A stretch of 64,000 nucleotides of DNA from Citrus sinensis. Taxonomy: Eukaryota; Streptophyta; Magnoliopsida; Sapindales; Rutaceae. The stretch spans positions 32,951,001 through 33,015,000 of the forward strand of contig NC_068564.1 in NCBI RefSeq assembly GCF_022201045.2, in the 5' to 3' direction. The translations under genes and the position numbers were made by a program. Shown here one piece after another: positions 4,929 to 61,500 of this stretch. The stretch's first letter is position 1. Every line of letters starts with the position of its first letter. Below the pieces are notes generated by a model that worked only from the letters and a program-made list of their open reading frames with translations, was not told the DNA's origin and made no database searches.

Positions 4929-7049
4929 CTATGGATCATAGGATCCTCCCCAGACAGCACCAACAGTGCTAGCAGGGACAGCAGGCATGCCAACCCCACT
5001 GGCAGCAGCCACCCCATTACTACTACCATATGGAATCATGCCTTCTCCCGTCTGCACAACGCCCATCTGTAGAAGAGGCTGACTGTATCCATCAACATAC
5101 ACACCACCACCTTGTACAGATGGTGGATACGAAGGGATAGGATTTGTGTAGGTCTGACTGTATGGGTTTGGAGCTACATAAGGTAGGAACAGCACGAGCA
5201 TTAAGGCAAGCTAGAAAAAGTAGAATTATAAAGAAATTCAACTAATGAAACCATCTATAGAGGCAAGAAAAGTCACCGTGTCCTCTCATCTCAGCATTCA
5301 CCACCTCAGCATGTAATTTCTCCATTTCTCTTGCCATCCCAACTAGATTCTTCTCCATTGCTTGTAATTGCTCCACGTTGTCTATGTTTAGACCCTTTTC
5401 ATACTCAAACGTAGCACTATTTTCCCCACAACATAGATTAAAACAAATGGTTAGATCCAAGTCAGAAATAAATTGTGCTTTAACTTCTAAACTAATGAAA
5501 GAATGTGACATGTTTAGACCCTTTTCATACTCAAACGTAGCACTATTTTCCCCACCACATAGATTAAAACAAATGGTTAGATCCAAGTCAGAAATAAATT
5601 GTGCTTTAACTTCTAAACTAAAGAAAGAACATGACAATGGAAACCGAAACCCAAGAAATTTGGATGTTGGTACATCAGCAGCATATCTATGTGGCAGTGA
5701 AAACGATCGATCACCATCAATCAGGAACCACAATAGAGATTTATTCTTACAAGAGATGACAACGAATAAGTAATAAATAAAAACATAAAAAGTGGAAGAA
5801 GAAGAAGACGAGGAATAGAGAGTTTCATAGAACTTCAGTTTTTATGCAAAGGTGGTCAATATGACACCTTGCTTTCTAATTGCTTGGTTTACGACTACCT
5901 TTTTTTTTAACCCAGACTCCTGCGGACGCTAAACTGGGGGGTCAGTAAGGCACCCCAACCCCATGAACCATGAGACAACAAAGGGTGGAATTTTAAGCTC
6001 ACTAGAAGGATCGAACCTGAGACCTCGATACAGCCAAGCACCAGATCCCAAGCTCCCAACCAACTGGGCTGCCCCTTGGGGGCTACTTCATTTATGACTA
6101 CATCAAATTATTGAAAATTTAAAATAGCTTCATTATTCCTAACAAAAAGGAGGAAAAAGTATATTATATATCACTCGATATATAATCAAGTGTCAACACA
6201 CATGGAAACATTTTAATGATATAAGAAGACGAAATGAAGTCCTGAAATGTGCATTTATTTATTTATTTATTTTGTGGGGGCGGGGGGGGAGCAAGCATGA
6301 CGGAAGAGAAGGTGTCTCCCCCTTCTCTCCTTTTGGTGCTGCGATTTTCTTTGAGATTACGGACAAATTGTGATACTGTGTTCATTATTAATTATAGTAC
6401 CATAATATAAAAGACAGATTATGCAGAACAAGTTTCAGGTTTGACTCAGCACAAGTTTAAGCATCTCACAAGAGAAAAAATACAATAGAAACTTAAGTCA
6501 TTGCATGACTCACCGCAACCTCCGGTGTTCTTGTCTCAAAGAGTCGAGTTCAGCATGTAAATCAGGCAAATTTTTAACCTCAAGCCGGGCTTTATGCAAT
6601 GCCTCAGAAGCTTGCTGAATTTTAGAAGTCAACTCTTGTCTGGCTCTGGCCAAACTCTGTGCCTCAATGTGCGCCTGTTGAAGATCCTTTTTCAATCTCT
6701 CACCAGCCTTACAATCTGCTTCCATTTTTGCAATCTTATCAAGTAAGACCCTGATGTGAATATCACTTTCAGTATGGATGTTTCTAATGTGTGCCTTAAT
6801 TCTTGGAATCTCCTGTTGAGCAGCAGCCAGGTCCTCCCTCATGGTAATGTGAGAAGCTGCCAATCTATGATTATCCCTTGCAAGTCGTTCAATTTCTGCT
6901 GCCTGAACAGCAATCTTATCCTCTAAAAGAGGAAGTGGCTCCAATAACCGGTGACCAGCAGGAGAACCAGGAAATGGACCATGCCGCAACATTCCTGGAG
7001 CTGGAACAACACGGCCCTCATAATGTGGTTGAATACGTCTTCCAGACAT
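4929..7049 (-). CDS. FLX-like coiled-coil protein (306 residues, three coding exons)
   Basis: Member of the FLOWERING LOCUS C EXPRESSOR (FLX/FLXL) family; FLX works with FRIGIDA to raise FLC transcription, while most FLXL paralogues have less clear roles. Coding exons: 7049-6514, 5416-5277, 5173-4929, with GT-AG introns keeping one frame of 307 codons. The protein starts MSGRR, as in the family. A short Gly/Pro-rich leader precedes a long coiled coil (about residues 45-225) with LLEDKIAVQAAEIERLARDN near its start and EKNLVGMAREMEKLHAEVVN near its end. A Pro/Gly/Tyr-rich tail ends VWGGSYDP. ATG 7049 is preferred over 7103 because a CAG acceptor at about 7096 would remove the upstream ATG. A leader intron probably runs to a GTATGT donor at 8205. 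Exon 2's acceptor is duplicated (5384-5635). Confidence 0.85.
5384..5635 (-). repeat. 126-bp tandem duplication across an exon acceptor in the FLX-like gene
   Basis: Two adjacent near-identical 126-bp copies (5384-5509 and 5510-5635). Each contains intron sequence, the ATAG acceptor and the first residues of the exon (ATFEYEKGLN). Since 126 is divisible by three and the duplicated intron part has no stop, both acceptors (exon starting at 5416 or 5542) keep frame. Use of the upstream one would add 42 residues. Confidence 0.9.
5899..6090 (-). mobile_element. tRNA-derived SINE in the FLX-like first coding intron
   Basis: A 192-bp minus-strand insertion with box A (AGCCCAGTTGG, complement of 6060-6070), box B (GGTTCGATCCT, complement of 6007-6017) and a terminal A-tract (T-run on the plus strand after 5899). 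Flanked by 11-bp near-perfect direct repeats, tttacgactac (5888-5898) and tttatgactac (6091-6101), read as the target-site duplication. Confidence 0.75.
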
Positions 7050-20850: not shown

Positions 20851-21034
20851 ACCTTCACATGCCCCTTCTCTTTCTCTTAGGTGCAGCCCCCTCAATTTGC
20901 TCTGCATCTATAACTGTCACACCATTTCAATCCAATCCAAAACCAAATCCAACCCGGTTTCACCTTTCCTTCTAAACAAACAAACCAACCCCGAAAAGGG
21001 AAAATAATAAAAGATTCGAAGATTCTAGAGAAAA

Positions 21035-22330
21035 ATGCCGTCTTTAGAAGAGGAGCTGTTCCCGTCGACGCCGGGGAAATTCAAGATTGAAAGATCCAAC
21101 ACTATGAACCGCCAGTTTCACCGGTGTTTCACCTCAACGAGTACCATGTTCTTGTGGGCTCTTTTCTTGGTTGCTTTAACGGCGTCGTATTTGAGTTTTC
21201 AGTCTTTTGTCGATTCCGGTAGCCGGTACTTTTCCGCTTCTTGGGGAGGTATCCAGTGGGAGAAACATGTCAGGAGTTCCGCTCAGATCCATCGGTCTGG
21301 TGGGATGTCGGTGCTGGTTACCGGTGCAGCCGGTTTCGTTGGGACCCACGTGTCTTTGGCTTTAAAGAAACGCGGAGACGGCGTCGTTGGACTCGACAAT
21401 TTCAATAACTACTACGATCCCTCATTGAAGAAGGCGAGGAAGGCTTTGTTGAACAACCATGGCGTTTTCGTAATTGAAGGTGATATCAATGACGCGAAAT
21501 TATTAGCCAAGCTCTTTGACGCTGTGGCTTTTACGCACGTGATGCATTTAGCGGCTCAAGCCGGTGTTAGATACGCGATGCAGAATCCCCACTCGTACGT
21601 GCACAGCAATATCGCTGGCCTCGTCACGCTCCTTGAGGCTTGCAAATCAGCCAATCCTCAGCCGTCGATTGTGTGGGCCTCGTCGAGCTCAGTCTACGGC
21701 TTAAACGAGAACGTCCCATTCTCCGAGGCTGATCGGACGGACCAGCCAGCTAGTCTTTACGCGGCTACCAAAAAGGCCGGTGAAGAAATTGCTCACACCT
21801 ACAATCACATTTACGGCCTCTCAATTACCGGGCTGAGGTTTTTCACCGTGTACGGACCCTGGGGCCGACCCGATATGGCTTACTTCTCGTTCACGAGAAA
21901 TATTCTCCAAGGCAAACCAATCACGGTTTATCGTGGGAAGAATCACGTCGACTTGGCACGAGATTTTACTTACATTGACGATATCGTGAAGGGTTGTTTA
22001 GGTTCGCTGGATACCTCGGGTAAGAGTACCGGGTCGGGCGGAAAGAAGCGGGGTCCAGCACCGTACCGGATCTTTAATTTGGGGAACACGTCACCGGTCA
22101 CGGTACCTAAGCTGGTGAATATATTGGAGAGACACCTGAAGGTAAAAGCCAAGAAGAATGTAATCGAAATGCCTGGAAACGGCGACGTCCCGTTCACGCA
22201 TGCGAATATCAGTTCGGCCCAGAAGGAGTTTGGGTACAGGCCCACGACGGATTTGCAAACCGGCTTGAAAAAATTTGTTAGGTGGTATCTCTCATATTAC
22301 GGCTATAATCGTGGCAAACGTGTAAATTAA
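21035..22330 (+). CDS. GAE1: UDP-glucuronate 4-epimerase, 431 residues, intronless
   Basis: Interconverts UDP-glucuronate and UDP-galacturonate, the activated sugar for pectin, in the Golgi. It is a type II membrane protein: a cytosolic tail (MPSLEEELFPSTPGKFKIER), a membrane anchor at about residues 37-57, then an extended-SDR domain. Visible parts are the NAD-binding Rossmann loop VTGAAGFVG (95-103), the serine cluster ASSSSVYG (215-222), and the catalytic YAATK (Tyr242, Lys246). The GLRFFTVYGPWGRPDMAYF segment is typical of GAE. Length matches the roughly 430-residue family. The tail and C-terminus (RWYLSYYGYN) resemble Arabidopsis GAE1 (At4g30440) more than GAE6, from memory. Intronless as in the family. 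No disrupted residues were seen. Confidence 0.95.
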   Translation: MPSLEEELFPSTPGKFKIERSNTMNRQFHRCFTSTSTMFLWALFLVALTASYLSFQSFVDSGSRYFSASWGGIQWEKHVRSSAQIHRSGGMSVLVTGAAGFVGTHVSLALKKRGDGVVGLDNFNNYYDPSLKKARKALLNNHGVFVIEGDINDAKLLAKLFDAVAFTHVMHLAAQAGVRYAMQNPHSYVHSNIAGLVTLLEACKSANPQPSIVWASSSSVYGLNENVPFSEADRTDQPASLYAATKKAGEEIAHTYNHIYGLSITGLRFFTVYGPWGRPDMAYFSFTRNILQGKPITVYRGKNHVDLARDFTYIDDIVKGCLGSLDTSGKSTGSGGKKRGPAPYRIFNLGNTSPVTVPKLVNILERHLKVKAKKNVIEMPGNGDVPFTHANISSAQKEFGYRPTTDLQTGLKKFVRWYLSYYGYNRGKRVN

Positions 22331-32041: not shown

Positions 32042-33295
32042 ACTAATTTTCATAAGAAGGCCTTAGTTGAAATTTTCAGATAGTTTTTGACTTGTTCATG
32101 TTACTCGAGGGCCAATCCCTGTCCTGAATTATTGCCTCGATCTAATTGTTAATTTCATTATAAGCAAAATTTTGCAGCAGCTAGTTTGTAAGCCTCTATT
32201 CCTTTTACCTCTCCTGTATGGATATTGTGTTTTATTATTATTATTATTTTTTTGGTAATATAACGATCAGCCAGAAAAAATGATGTTCCATTTCAGAGTT
32301 ATTGTAGCAATTTGAAGAAATTGGCATTGTCGAAGTGACAGGAATTCTCTATCCCCATCTCTCTCTATCACTCTATGTTATTTTAAAGCCTAATAACACC
32401 CTACTTTCTAGCTAATGGCAGATGGTTATGAATTATTATATTTAATACATTATGCATCTGGTCGTAGTCAGTGGTGGCGCCAGAATTTCAATCTAATAGG
32501 AGTTACATTCTGCCAGTAATATGCTGTAATCAGGGAAGTATTCAAGAATTCCGTCTGGGCAAATTTAATATATAATACAATTTTAAGAGTTTAGTTAATC
32601 GCATTATTTAGAAAAATAATGATATTTGTCGATATAGGGCTCGTGACAGCACTAGAAATGCACTATATAATGTCATTTTAGCTAATGAAACAATCAAATA
32701 ATGTGAAAGCAGCTAGGCATTAAATAGTCCAATAAAATACATTAATAAGCTTTAATTAAATTTCCCTTTACTCGTTAAAAAAATTTATGAAATTTCTTCG
32801 AATTAACACAGTTTGATAAGTAACGAGATAGGAAAAAGCCTCAAAGTTTGATTGAAATAATAAATTGACTGAACAATAGAACGAATAGAAATTTACCTGT
32901 GTATGTGAAAGCCTGAAGAAGTGGGAAATTTACGAAAATAATCATAAAATTTTTGCTATTTTCATAATTAACCCTCTCAACTTTTTCCTATCAACATTAG
33001 CCAAACACACGTTTTTCTCCCCAAATTACCCTTCTTTACAAACCAAAAATAACTTTCTTTCTCCCCTTTCGTCAAACCAAAGCCAGCTTTCCACTCTTGA
33101 ATCATCAACCAACGGCGACGGTACAAGGCAACGATAAAAGTGAAATCCGATCATAATCTATCAGGATCCAACACTAATCGGCATCACATAGTGGTATGAG
33201 TTATTTTCTGAACTTGCTCGAGAGTTTCAGTGAACTGCGAGTCGGGGTGAATTTGGCGACAGGCTGCCTGTCGCACCAAAACTTAGTGCGACAGG

Positions 33296-34017
33296 TAGAG
33301 CTGGCAAAATTTGACACGACCCGATTACCCGACACGAACACGACATAAATAAATGGGTATGGGTCGTTAAATTTAACACGATTATTAAATGGGTCGGGTC
33401 CGGGTCAACACGATTTTTTTCCGTGTCGGGTTTGGGTTAAAATTCTTGACCCATTTACCCGATCAATGACCCGATTATATTTTCTATTTTAAAATAATTT
33501 ACATATTCTTATAATTAAAACTCAAATATTAGAGATGATTTTCTTTTTTTTTATTCTTTAAAAGGATGAATATAAACACAATGTTTTATTTATAAAATTT
33601 TACATACATTTAGAGCTTCAATAGTGTAAATGTGTAAAAATTGATAGACATGTATATTTCATAATATTGATATATAATATTATATATATATATATATATA
33701 TAAAATTAAAACCTCAATAGTGTACATGTGTAATATATTGGTAGATATGTATATTTTATAATATCGATAAATTATGTATGTATGTATTTATGTACATACG
33801 TATATATGATAGTGTGTAAATATTTGATGTAACTTTTGTTCAATATATAGATATTAAACGGGTTATTGGGTAACCCGATTATTTTTCCGTGTCGGGTTTG
33901 GGTCTCAATATTTTGACACGATTATTAAATGGGTCGGGTTTGGGTCGACCTAAATTTGACACGACACGAAACTGACACGACACGAACACGACCCGATGAC
34001 CCATTTTGCCAGCTCTA
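33296..34017. mobile_element. Non-autonomous hAT element, 722 bp
   Basis: Perfect inverted ends TAGAGCTGGCAAAAT / ATTTTGCCAGCTCTA with an exact 8-bp target duplication gcgacagg (33288-33295 and 34018-34025). Subterminal regions are rich in GGGTCG/CGACCC and ACACGAC motifs; the core is AT-rich with a TA microsatellite (33680-33702). No coding capacity. It interrupts the 31-bp repeat array. Confidence 0.88.
33680..33702. repeat. TA microsatellite
   Basis: TA dinucleotide run inside the hAT element. Confidence 0.9.
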
Positions 34018-34023
34018 GCGACA

Positions 34024-34217
34024 GGCACCTGTCGCACCAAGCCTTAGTGCGACAGGCACCTGTCGCACCAAAACTTGGTGCGACATGCACCTGTCGCACC
34101 AAAACTTGGTGCGACATGCACCTGTCGCACCAAAACTTGGTGCGACAGGCACCTGTCGCACCAAGCCTTGGTGCGACAGGCACTTGTCGCACCAAGCCTT
34201 GGTGCGACAAGCACTTG
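34024..34217. repeat. Array of 31-bp palindromic repeats
   Basis: Six consecutive units start at 34024, 34055, 34086, 34117, 34148 and 34179, with a partial seventh at 34210. One further unit (about 33263-33293) lies left of the hAT insertion, so the array was once continuous. Most units contain TGTCGCACCAA and its complement TTGGTGCGACA separated by 3 bases (AAC or GCC), so each can fold into an 11-bp stem. Long open frames across it (minus 33950-34315, plus 33996-34220) are by-products of the repeat. Confidence 0.92.
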
Positions 34218-34429
34218 TAATTTGGTGACCATTGTATTCGGCTTTTGTAATAATGAAGCTCGAAATATGACGAAAAAAAGGGCGGGATGGGGGGAAAAAT
34301 ATAAAAAGAATGCATTCACATTTTGATGATTGAACCTGAAGAAAAGAACGTGATTGAATTATAAAGTGGTTGGACAGAGATATGCCAGCAAACGAAATCG
34401 TCTATTCCAAACTTCAATAATTTCTTTCC

Positions 34430-34642
34430 TCCATGCTTCTCAGACCAACAGGAGCCACCTTTGTTATCGTACTCAATCTGGATGGAGTCGATGCCAGCTC
34501 CATGAGCTATCACCAGCTGCCTCACTGTCATGTGAACTCCATCATCCCAACGAGTACCGTTCTGACCTCCCCATGGTCCGACTGCTATTGGTTTGAGCTG
34601 GGGATGATACATTCTCAACATTGCCGCCGACGCCGCTGACAA
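34430..34642 (-). pseudogene. Captured jacalin-related lectin fragment
   Basis: The minus strand reads KPIAVGPWGGQNGTRWDDG, then VRQLVIAHGAGIDSIQIEYD and WSEKHGG, unmistakably the first half of a jacalin (mannose/glucose-binding lectin) domain. After HGG similarity stops and the frame runs into unrelated sequence. Only about 60 residues of a roughly 140-residue domain are present and the carbohydrate-binding C-terminal loop is missing, so it cannot be a functional lectin alone. It sits inside the inverted ends of the Pack-MULE-like element, and the reading frame is undamaged. In-frame ATGs lie at 34642, 34621 and 34612. Confidence 0.8.
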
Positions 34643-34824
34643 TGAGAGGTTCTTCGGTTTGGGAGAGATGGGAGAAAGAGAGATTGTTGGGGGAGAGATG
34701 AGAGAGAGGGGTATTTTGGTCTGAAATGCTTTTTTATGGCTAATGTTGATAGAAGTTTGTTTAGAGGGTTAAGATAGAAAAAGCCAAAATTTTTATGGCT
34801 ATTGGTGTAAATTTCCCAAGAAGT

Positions 34825-35578
34825 AGAGAGGGAGGACTGGATGATAGGAATGAGTAATTTGAACTAATTAAAAATTTGATGATATTTACTTTTTTTTTTA
34901 TCATTTAAACATGAAAAGCCCCAAAACAAATAAAGCCATAAAGCATTAATATATGATGTTTTTGATATTTTTAAAATTTAGAAGGGATTTTTTTTTTTTT
35001 GTGTTTCAAATTAATAATAGGCTAAATTTAAAAATGCATTTAAAATTTTTCAAAAAGCCCCGCAAGAGCCCCTTGCTGGGTAAAACGTGGCGCCAGCCAT
35101 GGTCGCAGCAACTCGTATAACAGTATCATGCATCAATTGCAATCAAGGCTGAGGCTAACGCCACTTTTTAGGTGGGCTAAAATTGTTTTAATTACTGTTC
35201 ACACGAGCCATGCAAACCACGAATTGTTCACTACACAATTGAGATAAATAAACAATTCATCCTGATTAAGATGATTTTCTTCAATTACAGAGACTTGCTT
35301 GAAATTTTCAAATCAAATATCTAAATTAAGAAATTTGTGTAATTAACTAAAAAATTATTTTTAAAAATCTTACCCGGGCTACCGCCCGGATTAGCCTCCC
35401 TTTAGTTCACCCCTGGTTGCAATACAAAATGAACATCCCAAGACCATTATTTTCTAAAATTTAATCTACACTTGTTTTTAAGTGAAAAACCATGTGAGGC
35501 CTCTAGTAATGATAACCTTTTATTTATATTAAATGCACGAGTGAAAATAGTGACACTCTTATATTTTATGATTTCATA
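34825..35578. other. Intergenic transposon debris
   Basis: No gene. Much of it may be the right part of the putative old hAT-like element; GGCGCCAG recurs near 35091 as at its left end. Confidence 0.35.
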
Positions 35579-54489: not shown

Positions 54490-55919
54490 TTACGGAAAGA
54501 TATCATAAAAAAACTTGTTGAAGTGCTGCAAGTGACTAGTTTCCATGCCTACAGCCACCGACCAGCTCCCATCATTGGTTGGACCGGGTAAAATGAAAAC
54601 CTCTCCGTCCACGCCGGACACAGGCATCGTAAACACCGGCCGACCCCATCCAAGATCCACCTCGTACATAGGCATGTCTGCCAATTTGGTTGTCAGCAGG
54701 TTTGGACAATTACTAATTTTGGCGTCTCGCCTGATAACTGTTAAATCAGGTTGTTGCTTTAGGTAAGCATGCCCTGACTTCATATACTTGTCATCCGTCA
54801 TTTTAAGTGCTTCATGAATTCTCTCTGTTGTACAATTTAACGATTCCGATTGAATATCACCTGACAAGGCCATTGGTGTGGTGCTGAAGCCTACATTGCC
54901 ACAATACCCAAATGGAATTTTAGGATTCAATTTAAATCGCCCAGATGTAGGAATATCTAACTTGGTAGCTTGATCAACAGACAACCCTCGTGCTTTACAT
55001 GCGCAGCGCCATATATGTGCTGCTACAATCTCAAATCTAGTATACTTGACGGTGGATCCGTGATCTCCCTTAGATTTTTCTTTAAGGATGTTCATTTGAT
55101 CAGGTGATAATTTCAGGATTGCAGTGGAAATGGCTTGAGGATTTTGAGTAGGACTATTCATGAAAGGAGGGGGATCGTGTTCGATGTGGTGAAATGATGG
55201 AGAAGTTGGGACTCCAACATCTAGTATAGTTCGATCAAAGATTGGTGGAACGCTAATAGGAATGCCACGCGACATCTCAGCCCATGAGTTCATGAAGTGA
55301 TATGCCGTAGTTCCGTCCATTGGCAGATGATGCATCATAAGTCCAAGAGAAACTCCTCCACACTTAAAATGAGTTACCTATAAAGAAATAAAGTGACTAA
55401 GTTTGAGTGAGTATTATGAATAATTCTTTTGATGGAGTAGCTCTCAATTTCATTTTAATAAAATGAGGAAACACACGAGCTCTCTTTTTATTCTTATTCT
55501 TCTACCTGTGCCATAATAAGTGGATGAAAATATGCATCTTTCGTGCGATCAACAGGTGGAACAAGTTGCACGAGCTTCAAGCATGATTCAAAGTCACCAA
55601 AATCATCAGTGACACAACTCGTTTCAGCTTCAATAAATAAAACTCCCTTTCCGTTACATTTTATTTCAATTCTGCCATTTTCATCTTTACCCAATCTTCC
55701 GGCCAATGGGTGAAACGGGACAAGAACTTTACTCAAAGCCTCCTTCAGTAAACCACCTTCAAACAAATTGGAAGGGTAATTTGGCCGTCGGTAGAAATAC
55801 ACACTGGGGATGTGACTTGCCGGCATCAGCAGGTCTAAATCACTCAACCGTAGGCAATGTCTGGGGGTTTCTTGAGCAGGCCGTATTATTGTTGACTCTT
55901 TTACGTGAATTGTTTCCAT
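54490..55919 (-). CDS. BAHD acyltransferase A (HCT-like), two exons, 433 residues
   Basis: Acyl-CoA-dependent transferase of the BAHD family, most like hydroxycinnamoyl-CoA:shikimate/quinate or spermidine transferases; acceptor not predictable here. Exons 55919-55506 and 55377-54490, GT-AG, phase 0, with the intron at the family's usual site (LIMAQ-VTHFKCGG). The catalytic motif is HHLPMD (His155, Asp159). The structural motif DFGWG is DLGWG here (379-383), a conservative change found in some active BAHDs. Start METIHVKES fits the family; an upstream in-frame Met exists. About 41 residues differ from copy B (roughly 90% identity by eye). The reading frame is intact, so probably functional. 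Confidence 0.92.
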
Positions 55920-56009
55920 TGTGTCACCACCTGCATGCATCCGATGGCCACGAAAAATAAGAATATACAGGATAATAGATATAGTTAACTCTGATACTAT
56001 GCACAACAC

Positions 56010-56757
56010 AAATCAAATTATGCCTTAATTAGCAAGAAAAGAAAGTACCCATATACCTGGGGGTTGGGAGCTCTAAGACTTCAGAATTCTTATGGTAAAT
56101 GAAAAATGAGTTCATTTCGGACATATGTATACCGATGAACTTGCGTTTAAAGCCAATATTTTGAGATAAGTTTTTTTTATTCCACACGCGGAATCAATTA
56201 CCTTATCCAAGTTGTTTGATTTTCTAAAATTTCAAAGTAACATTCACGCTGCGCTACATTTAAATATGGTTATTGAATAATTTAGCCACCTAATCAATAT
56301 GTACACTTTAATTATAAAACGGGCTCGAAAAAGAAATAAAGCCACTCGTTGCGTTTCGTTCACTTATCATTTTCTCTTCATGGGCCCATAGTTACTTTAA
56401 AAAAAAAATAAATATTAATAAAAAAATAAAAGAGAAGTCTGAAAAGGATATCAGATCAAACCTTATTTCTTCTCAACCGTCTCTACTTTATCTCTAATTG
56501 TCTTTCACAAAATCAATTTTACGATTTTTTTATCTCTTCTCTACCATCACAGAACCGGCTAACCAACCTTATCTCTTCTCTACCGTGACCATGCCAACCA
56601 ACCTTGTAGATTTTCCTTTGCCGTCGATGCAGCACAAAGCCAATAGATCTACAAATTTTGCAGACTTTCTTTTGCAAATTTCTTTTGCCGTCACCTCTCA
56701 TTTGTATATACTCTCTCCCTCTCACTTTCCTTCCATAGAGGAACTATTTTAGTTCGT
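56010..56757. other. Promoter region of BAHD gene A and adjacent flank
   Basis: No coding signal beyond chance frames (56498-56752). Sequence is shared with 59987-60330 and 61085-61500 of copy B, including an ATGGACC-rich leader and a CTCTCTCCCTCTCAC block. Confidence 0.45.
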
Positions 56758-58465: not shown

Positions 58466-59896
58466 TTACGGAAAGATATCATAAAAATACTTGTTGAAGT
58501 GCTGCAAGTGGTTAGTTTCCATGTCTACAACCACCAACCAGCTCCCATCATTGGTTGGACCAGGTAAAATGAAAATCTCTCCGTCCACGGCGGCCCAAGG
58601 CGTCGTAAACACCGGCCGACCCCATCCAAAATCTACCTCGTACATAGGCATGTCTGCTACTTTGGTTATCAGCAGGTTTGGACAATTAATAATTTTGGGG
58701 TCTCGCCTGATAACTGTTAAATCAGGTTGTTGCTTTAGGTAGGCAAGCCCTGACTTCATATACTTGTCATCCCTCAATTTAATTGCTTCATGAATTCTCT
58801 CTGTTGTACAATTTAATGATTCCGATTGAATATCACCTGACAAGGCCATTGGTGTGGCGCTGAAGTTTACATTGCCACAATACCCAAGTGGAATTTTAGG
58901 ATTCAATTTAAATCGCCCAGATGTGGGAATCTCTAACTTGGTAGCTTGATCAATAGACAACCCTCGTGCTTTACATGCGCAGCGCCATATATGTGCTGCT
59001 ACAATCTCAAATCTAGTATACTTGACGGTGGATCCGTGATCTCCCTTAGATTTTTCTTTAAGGATGTTCATTTGATCAGGTGATAATTTCAGGATTGCAG
59101 TGGAAATGGCTTGAGGATTTTGAGTAGGAGTATTCATGGAAGGAGGGGGATCGTATTCGATGTGGTGAAATGATGGAGAAGTTGAGACTCCAACATCTAG
59201 TATAGTTCGATCAAAGATTGGTGGAACGCTAATAGGAATGCCACGCGTCATCTCAGCCCATGAGTTCATGAAGTGGTATGCCGTAGTTCCGTCCATTGAC
59301 GTATGATGCATCATAAGTCCAAGAGAAACTCCTCCACACTTAAAATGAGTTACCTATAAAGAAATAAAGTGACTAAGTTTGAGTGAGTATTATGAATAAT
59401 TCTTTTGATGGAATAGCTCCTAATTTCATTTTTAATAAAATGAGGAAATACACGAGCTCTCTTTTTATTCTTATTCTTCTACCTGTGCCATAATAAGTGG
59501 ATGAAAACATGCATCTTTCGTGCGATCAACAGGTGGAACAAGTTGCACGAGCTTCGAGCTTGATTCAAAGTCACCAAAATCATCAGTGACATAACTCGTT
59601 TCAGCTTCAATAAATAAAACTCCCTCTCCTTTGCATTTTATTTCAATTCTGCCATTTTCATCTTTACCCAATCTTCCGGCCAAGGGGTAAAACGGGACAA
59701 GAACTTTACTCAAAGCCTCCTTCAGTAAACCACCTTCAAAGAAATTGCAAGGGTAATTTGGCCCTCGGTAGAAATACACACTGGGGATGTGACTTGCCGG
59801 CATCAGCAGGTCTAAATCACTCAACCGTAGGCAATGTCTGGGGGTTTCTTGAGCAGGCCGTATTATTGTTGACTCTTTTACGTGAATTGTTTCCAT
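58466..59896 (-). CDS. BAHD acyltransferase B (HCT-like), two exons, 433 residues
   Basis: Tandem paralogue of gene A with identical structure: exons 59896-59483 and 59353-58466, same intron position. The catalytic motif is HHTSMD (His155, Asp159) and the structural motif is the canonical DFGWG (379-383). Differences from A cluster in the second half, including residues next to DFGWG (FTTPWAAVDGEIF versus FTMPVSGVDGEVF), which could alter acceptor or solvent-channel properties. The frame is intact. Its 3' flank holds the inverted fragment at 57959-58050. Confidence 0.92.
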
Positions 59897-59986
59897 TGTG
59901 TCACCACCTGCATGCATCCGATGGCCACAAAAAATAAGAATATACAGGATAATAGATATAGTTATCTCTGATACTGTGCACAACAC

Positions 59987-61500
59987 AAAGCTAGCAAATC
60001 AAATCATGCCTTAATTAACAAGAAAAGAAAGTACCCATATACCTTGGGGTTGGGGGCTCTAAGACTTCAGAATTCTTGTGGTAAAAGAAAAATGAGTTCA
60101 TTTCGGACATATGTATACCGATGAGCTTGCGTTTAAAGTCAGTGTTTTGAGATAAGTTTCTTTTATTCCACACACGGAATCAACTACCTTATCCAAGTTG
60201 TTTGGTTTTCTAAAATTTCAAAGTCACATTCACGCTCAATGCAAATATGGCTATTGAATAATTTAGGTACCGGATCAATATGTACACTAGAATTATAAAG
60301 ATGGGCTTGGAAAAGAAATAAAGCACCTTTTGGAAAAGAAATAAAGCACCTTTTTTTTTGTTATATTTAATTCTCCACATAATCATTACATTTATAGTGC
60401 TTTACAAGAAACACGATAAGCCATCACAATAGTTATCTTTATCTTGATCTTGATAAATGTAAAAGTAAAAAACTTGAATTAATCATAAGATAAGAGATAA
60501 GGCTGACCACTTTAAACTTTCGGAACACTAATAAATGCTAAGTATGCTGCCCTGTCATCTAACATATTTGAATTTGTATTACTCAAGTTTGGTAGCTCTG
60601 CTACAATTTTTTCATCAAAGTATTGATCTCGAATGGGGTAGAGTTGATGCAACAGCCACGAGTCTCTTTAGCCTTTGTCTTAGTCTTAGAGTTGGACAAT
60701 GACCCTCTCCTGATCTAAGCTCTCATGGGTTTTTAAAGATCTTATGTCATGTGTCTTTAAGTAATAGTGTATAAATATGATTTAATTTCTTTATTTTTTT
60801 TATTCATTAACTATCAATCACCACATATATTTTTAATCAGGAGGAGATCAGATCAGGAGAGAATCTTGATCCCTTAGAGTTAGATTGAAACTGATGATGA
60901 GGACTTGAGGTTGATTTGGTTTAATTGTCAACAATTTTGTGGTCTTTGACAAATAGAGTTGAGAAGATTATCGTGTTGAGAGTAATTATTGGACTAATGA
61001 CATGAACTTACGATGACTCTCAATCCTTGAGATAATTTTTTATTATGAGTTAGACTTGTACTTGTAGCTTGAATTTTGTTTGAAGCCACTTGCTATCATT
61101 TCATTCATTTATCATTTCCTTTTTGTGGGCCTACATTTACTTTAAAAAAGTAAATATATAAAAAAAAAAGAGAAGTCCAAAAATGATATCAGAGCAAACC
61201 TTATCTTTTCTTTACCTTATCTCTAATTGTCTTTCACAAAATAAATTTTGTGATTTTTCATCTCTTCTCTATCATCACAGAACCGGCTAACCAACCTTAT
61301 CTCTTCTCTACTGTGACCACGCCAACTAACCTTGCAGATTTTTATTTGTCGTTGATGCAGCACAGAGCTAATAAATCTACGAATTTTGTAGACTTTTTTT
61401 TGCAAATTTCTTTTGTCGTCACCTCTCACTCGTACATACTCTCTCCCTCTCACTTTCCTTCCATAGAGGAACTATTTTTGTTCGTTAATTTGTTTGATTT
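59987..61500. other. Upstream region of BAHD gene B with a 0.75-kb insertion
   Basis: Aligns with copy A up to about 60330 and again from about 61085. The intervening roughly 750 bases are absent from copy A; they begin at a duplicated GGAAAAGAAATAAAGCACCT (60309 and 60331). No coding signal or terminal repeats recognised in the insertion. Confidence 0.5.

Follow-up and report, generated by a model that had tools for sequence, protein, structure and literature searches.

The 64-kb window, as we call the whole stretch of Citrus sinensis DNA analysed here, carries on C9 a Mutator-like element (MULE) with a fragment of a jacalin-related lectin exon in its interior (Table 1). Elsewhere in the window we found a single-frame NAD-dependent epimerase (21029-22327; PF01370, E 2.5e-51), presumably a UDP-glucuronate 4-epimerase, and an apparent tandem acyltransferase pair (54490-56012 and 58466-59998; PF02458 in the three of four frames that were scanned), which we take to belong to the BAHD family. 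Two 126-bp tandem copies, 96% alike and with a period that is a multiple of three, lie in an open frame at 5384-5636. Rfam gave nothing at gathering score in the 64-kb window.

The terminal inverted repeats of the element pair 32922-33035 with 34705-34818 (114 nt, 74% complementary), and taking the element as 32923-34817 gives ends of 113 bp that start with GGGAAATTT, long inverted repeats as are typical of MULEs. The preliminary description of this DNA had put the inverted ends at about 80 bp; they are real, and longer than was thought. The 7-bp flanking repeat AAGAAGT that it reported is indeed exact on both sides. The interior is made up of a palindromic tandem array, a nested MITE and donor pieces, i.e. 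host-gene cargo and no transposase, as is characteristic of Pack-MULEs; here, the Pfam scan of the window interior covered the jacalin frame only. The MITE, the array and three further captured sources are additions to the preliminary description.

Table 1. Positions, within the 64-kb window, of the element, its parts and its flanking duplications.
Feature	Position	Strand	Remarks
Left target-site duplication AAGAAGT	32916..32922	.	7 bp exact; the original length was probably 9 bp, AAGAAGTGG
Left terminal inverted repeat of the MULE	32923..33035	+	Complementary to the right end; recurs in the genome
Left subterminal region	33036..33255	+	Common to one family subgroup; blastn 82-98% over the left end among sharing copies
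31-bp palindromic tandem array, start, interrupted by the MITE	33256..33295	.	
Nested hAT-like MITE	33296..34017	.	15-bp perfect inverted ends TAGAGCTGGCAAAAT; 8-bp duplication GCGACAGG (33288-33295 / 34018-34025)
31-bp palindromic tandem array, 6.5 copies	34018..34218	.	Tandem repeat and fold energy
Two fragments from a single C3 locus that precedes glycosyl hydrolase family 3 exons	34224..34360	+	2-bp overlap at 34259-34260
Filler bases, 5 (TTTAT), at a junction	34361..34365	.	
Fragment of C5:36152765-36152825	34366..34426	-	Donor site precedes the ATG of an RPW8/NB-ARC gene by about 380 bp
Jacalin-related lectin exon fragment	34425..34594	-	Donor C5:37058253-37058422, 164/170 (96%) identical
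C4-derived piece, source around 29379184-29379212	34588..34623	-	Exact 36-bp match
Chimeric open frame, 101 codons and stop	34316..34621	-	Jacalin match at residues 14-67
Right end: CT-rich leader (one subgroup has it) and right terminal inverted repeat (34705-34817)	34621..34817	-	
Right target-site duplication AAGAAGT	34818..34824	.	

The nested insertion has the 8-bp duplication, the short, perfect inverted ends and the lack of a transposase that mark hAT MITEs, and on these duplication and end features alone we class it as putatively hAT-like. Its duplication lies in the tandem array, which itself contains that word. The first 125 bases of the MITE gave 40 scored genome matches (of 477 candidates), all at least 98% identical, which indicates a recently amplified family.

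A family of copies with 9-bp target duplications

The ends of the element recur elsewhere in the genome, an outcome that the preliminary description had named as a test of its proposal. The first 101 bases of the left end gave 40 scored matches (of 505 candidates), each at least 93% identical. From the loci matched by the ends we drew 31 copies which, with the window copy and a second one on C4, form a set of 33; L013 (single end), L025 (coincides with L014), L028 (has one end outside the locus) and L003-L008 (coincide with L038-L043) were left out of this paired set. Exact 9-bp duplications, of the size known for MULEs, lie directly outside the ends in 28 of the 33 copies. The remaining five are the window copy, with 7 bp, and L020, L022, L043 and L050, with none in exact register. 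When left and right 9-mers of different copies were paired with each other, 0 of 1056 cross-pairings agreed; together with the recurring left end, this rules out chance as the source of the ends and repeats.

The family falls into subgroups: some copies share the left end to about 33255 as well as the right leader, and others only the outer 110-127 bases (L038-L042, for example, have only about the first 127 bases of the left end in common). The interiors of L047, L048, L051, L052 and L054 are 98.8-100% alike over the compared stretches, three of them being identical there, from which we conclude that the family moved recently. A Pfam scan of 19 frames from other copies gave one hit above the curated cut-off, DBD_Tnp_Mut in L046, the others being empty or below it; with 18 of 19 scanned frames thus lacking such a hit, no protein of origin can be named here for most cargo types.

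Empty sites and a second copy of the cargo

Since the right flank of the window element is repetitive, we queried the genome with the two flanks joined. Four loci are continuous across the joined flanks (C6 over 2-263, C7 over 1-263, C5 over 1-263 and C7 over 1-262) at 76-78% identity, with a single word at the insertion point: AAGAAATGG in C6 and C5, AGGAAATGG in C7a and AAGAAACGG in C7b. The preliminary description had suggested looking for an empty site in relatives; the four sites found here are continuous across the insertion point, and they are paralogous loci of the same genome, not orthologues. At the window copy the right flank reads AAGAAGTAG and the left flank AAGAAGTGGG. The simplest history would be an original 9-bp duplication, AAGAAGTGG, after which the G-run at the left junction lost two Gs and a single G was replaced by A on the right. 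The window duplication can accordingly be read as 7 exact bases or, assuming a shortened left G-run, as 8 of 9, and the 7-bp repeat, exact as it is, probably does not represent the full original target duplication. The insertion site itself (34818-35066) is a low-copy dispersed repeat with five relatives that are 74-83% identical over about 200-250 bases and two shorter ones.

The second copy, at C4:17738963-17740035, has the same ends and cargo without the MITE. Compared with the window copy, it is identical at 329/333 positions of the left end, 145/145 of the C3 pieces with the filler, 59/59 of the piece from upstream of the C5 gene, 168/170 of the jacalin piece, 26/26 of the C4-derived piece and 195/197 of the right end; the array lengths differ. 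On both sides it is flanked by its own exact 9-bp duplication, CAAATTCTG, which, along with the empty sites for the window copy, demonstrates mobility of the element with its cargo. Because both copies have the same cargo, the patchwork was assembled before they parted, and because the MITE is absent from the C4 copy, it inserted afterwards. These two are the only copies with the jacalin cargo known in this genome. We conclude that the window element is a genuine Pack-MULE, a non-autonomous Mutator-like element of a citrus family.

Five fragments from four loci make up the cargo

A half jacalin domain is present as previously described: frame residues 14-67 match positions 1-56 of the 136 of PF01419 (E 1.1e-14). 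The span formerly assigned to it, 34430-34642, does contain lectin sequence; the captured stretch is that given in Table 1, and the rest of the span consists of the 36-bp foreign piece and the family right end. The jacalin parent, which was to be sought in the genome, was found on C5. Among the 14 jacalin-domain stretches scored in the genome, ten lie on C5 at 37.056-37.074 Mb, two lie on C7 and two are the element copies. The donor exon encodes PF01419 positions 1-64, the first half of the domain, and both ends of the captured 170 bp fall within this exon. The proposal that a lectin exon had been duplicated into a mobile element therefore holds for capture and mobility, and the captured part is a stretch from inside one exon, not the whole.

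Nor is the lectin the sole cargo: it is one of five fragments from four loci that together occupy about 400 bp. Beside it lie the 61 bases from upstream of the RPW8/NB-ARC gene. Between the two C3 pieces 724 bp of the donor are skipped, and the second piece has a short insertion inside. The 29-base pattern of the C4-derived piece occurs three times in the genome at up to 3 mismatches, namely in both element copies and in the C4 source, and an inspection of open frames alone found no gene at the latter. This match to C4, although exact, is short at 36 bp, which speaks somewhat against its weight as a source.

Seams between the captured pieces

Read from the right end inward, the pieces overlap by 3 (CAA), 7 (AAACCAA) and 2 bases (AA), then meet with no overlap and 5 filler bases (TTTAT), and finally overlap by 2 at the join between the two C3 pieces. 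Overlaps of 2-7 bp are thus present at three of the four joins between donor pieces, and one of 3 bp where the cargo meets the right end. In a simple random-joining model that covers the joins from the right end to the two C3 pieces, a total overlap of 14 bp has a P of 7e-5 to 8e-4 over the four overlapping joins and of 3e-4 to 3e-3 when the filler join is counted as a fifth, the ranges following from the assumed chance of a base match.

We searched for the sources of four cargo types (window copy, L057, L012 and L044), two of which draw on several loci and the other two chiefly on one locus each. The pieces of L057 (C2:28889800-28895800) match, judging from match positions alone, C5, C8, C5 or C7, and C7; its match at C7:13984321 lies about 1 kb from a right-end match and may represent another element instead of a donor. 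One part of L057 is matched at 98% by C7:12503007, and the many relatives that this part has at 70-74% on C7 lie for the most part at 11.9-12.6 Mb. In L012 there are three pieces from a single C6 locus. The pieces in L044 come from a single C9 locus; they overlap by 8 and 3 bp, and one of them is out of order. We rejected splicing-based (cDNA) capture: the edges of the skipped C3 stretch and of the L044 pieces lack GT-AG, and the overlaps there are 2, 8 and 3 bp.

The seams are consistent with template switching during repair synthesis, a mechanism put forward for animal Pack-TIRs, and we infer this step from them. Those of the window copy come from one event, and stepwise changes could mimic them.

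A palindromic array adjoins the cargo

The array that adjoins the cargo consists of 6.5 repeats of a 31-bp palindromic unit. Its computed fold as single-stranded DNA has an energy of -94.1 kcal/mol, the mean for shuffled sequences being -36.9 (z -18.3). Half-units (10 bases, at most 1 mismatch) are present in 33 of 33 copies, with 303 in 45,480 bp, as compared to 14 in 118,665 bp of flanks, some of which contain neighbouring family ends. Within the blastn limits, donor sequence starts about 5, 20, 11 and 0 bases from the array in the window copy, L057, L012 and L044, respectively. As a separate observation, L047, L048 and L054, 2.2-2.4 kb copies on C9 and C4 whose interiors are identical over the compared stretches, have 35, 27 and 29 half-units, which shows that array length changes fast.

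The array may simply be required for transposition. It is also conceivable, if rather improbable, that it acts as a capture machine, which by extruding hairpins and stalling replication or repair beside the interior would lead to repeated template switching into unlinked loci. If true, the MULEs described here would be a lineage specialised for cargo exchange, with the array on one side and the right-end leader on the other remaining fixed.

Transposase-coding relatives

Family members do encode MULE transposase. L046 (3053 bp, both ends, 9-bp duplication) contains a 378-aa frame with DBD_Tnp_Mut (E 3.4e-9), and this frame has 111 genome matches (744 candidates, 109 scored), many of them at 88-92% identity inside frames of 880-900 aa and many others containing stops. 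One such match, interrupted by two stops, is found at C4:5101900, about 0.9 kb into a copy that has the start of its left end at C4:5101014. L064, a relative of L046 with one stop in the matched stretch, has both family ends.

L065 and L066 combine a left end at 85% identity with the array and an 892-aa frame, and the one of the two frames that we scanned, that of L066, has the full set of MuDR/MULE transposase domains (PF10551, PF03108, PF00872 and SWIM). On the right side of both, the outer 113 bp were matched only as an inverted left end. An L066-type transposase may act on the ends of the window element and is our candidate partner in trans. L061 and L062, the top hits of a general MULE domain search (150 scored of 899), showed no match to these ends.

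The chimeric frame and alternative readings

The reading frame is open, as the preliminary description stated: it runs for 150 aa from stop to stop (34316-34768), and that of the C4 copy is likewise open. The ATG at 34621 was formed at a junction, its A being the last base shared with the family right end and its TG coming from the C4-derived piece. About 57 of the 101 codons that follow are jacalin-derived, and the tail comes from sequence upstream of other genes. Five of the six single changes between donor and window copy are synonymous (P 0.003-0.012), and one further difference, at codon 66, sits at a seam. Four of the five silent changes are common to both element copies, and the two changes that are private to the window copy are one silent change and T31M. 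Since the four shared changes may have arisen in the donor gene or in a donor allele, they are no evidence of selection. Selection on the frame is thus unsupported, with just two changes private to one element copy.

We regard the frame as most likely a neutral by-product of capture. It is possible, though on balance we doubt it, that the captured exon works mainly via small RNAs that would silence or modulate the donors, the C5 lectin gene among them: excerpts from the literature report maize elements with gene fragments as reservoirs of siRNAs for their donor genes (PMC13317346, PMC12030055), the captured 170 bp is close to its donor in sequence, and the neighbouring array folds strongly, in a computation for single-stranded DNA, not RNA; however, the array lies outside the jacalin piece. 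Far less probable, in our analysis of the sequence, is a functional gene in which the right end would provide promoter and leader and the new ATG would start a truncated jacalin-like protein. The frame is open in both copies, the CT-rich leader reaches the ATG, and the substitutions between donor and window copy are mostly synonymous, but the shared silent changes may have arisen on the donor side, the lectin domain ends after 56 of its 136 positions, the tail consists of stretches from upstream of other genes, and there are two copies only, in this genome. An old local jacalin pseudogene, later flanked by chance repeats with neither capture nor transposition, would agree with a fragment that is partial and alone in the window, but we dismiss it almost entirely in the face of four continuous empty sites, the C4 copy, the recurring ends and duplications and the donors elsewhere in the genome.

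Discussion

In this study we have dissected an element of a known and ordinary kind whose sources, seams and empty site are resolved to unusual depth. We are highly confident of the overall account, namely that of a Pack-MULE whose patchwork was built by repair template switching, which later moved and which afterwards received a MITE. In this account, a parental element would have broken or stalled between the palindromic array of the left end and the right end, and repair synthesis would have jumped among four loci, mostly, to judge from the seams, at short matching sequences. The resulting patchwork would have filled the interior and brought in, in frame, 170 bp of a jacalin lectin exon. 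The cargo-bearing element then moved, as is shown by the C4 and C9 copies, which lie within different target duplications; transposase was probably supplied in trans by related MuDR-type elements. The hAT-like MITE entered the C9 copy later, as its absence from C4 shows. The chimeric frame itself would most likely be a by-product and perhaps a source of small RNAs.

Pack-MULEs are known from rice, maize and Arabidopsis and were reportedly described by Jiang et al. in 2004. In excerpts of later papers they are defined as non-autonomous MULEs with host gene fragments, sometimes from several donors fused into a new frame (PMC12030055, PMC4858842), and about a fifth of those of rice are stated to contain several loci (PMC12030055). 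As far as these excerpts go, the window element resembles them in being non-autonomous and in carrying multi-donor fragments fused in frame. It differs in the 31-bp palindromic array by the cargo, with half-units in all 33 copies examined, and in that four donor loci are resolved within about 400 bp and their seams can be read base by base.

Similarities are also found in animals. Muta1 of Aedes aegypti and related MULEs have long ends and subterminal tandem repeats of variable copy number, and their derivatives have heterogeneous interiors that include host gene fragments (PMC5225508). The Muta1 repeats are 9-15 bp long and lie within the inverted ends (excerpts of PMC5225508), whereas the 31-bp palindromic unit of the citrus family is situated interior to the inverted repeat and predominantly at the left, with further arrays inside some copies. 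For animal Pack-TIRs, the gap-filling and FoSTeST models, as excerpted, entail capture seams with microhomology (median 2 bp), fillers and later transposition of multicopy elements (PMC8277862); the window element is like these in its seams with microhomology and filler and in being multicopy and having later moved.

Two kinds of citrus element call for comparison. CitMule is, in extracts from its description, a Mutator-like element of 6.9 kb with 9-bp duplications in three of four copies, a FAR1 DNA-binding domain and short degenerate inverted ends (PMC4334395); unlike it, relatives of our family combine PF03108 with long ends, a distinction drawn by description and not by sequence comparison. 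Citrus Mutator MITEs, e.g. DTM63, are non-autonomous, have 9-10 bp duplications and include one possibly active family, in a catalogue from which sequences of more than 800 bp were removed (excerpts of PMC6466647). On a comparison of descriptions alone, these MITEs could include a smaller member of the family studied here. Extracts of the literature on Pack-MULEs and Mutator-like elements, citrus, jacalin and template switching, a source that is not searchable by sequence, make no mention of the window element.

Taken together, a fragment of a jacalin lectin gene and scraps from three other places have been carried to at least two sites of the genome. Fragment acquisition by Pack-MULEs is called perplexing in the Pack-TIR paper, which also deems the applicability of its models to plant Pack-MULEs worth exploring (PMC8277862). 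In the window element a single event can be followed over nearly its whole course, with four source loci, five joins that overlap by 0-7 bp, a second copy, four empty sites and a candidate lineage for the transposase. Furthermore, several cargo types lie between constant ends, which makes the family suitable for a comparison of array length, of the position of the seams and of the length of their overlaps. Such a comparison could test whether template switching, proposed for animal elements, builds plant ones too.
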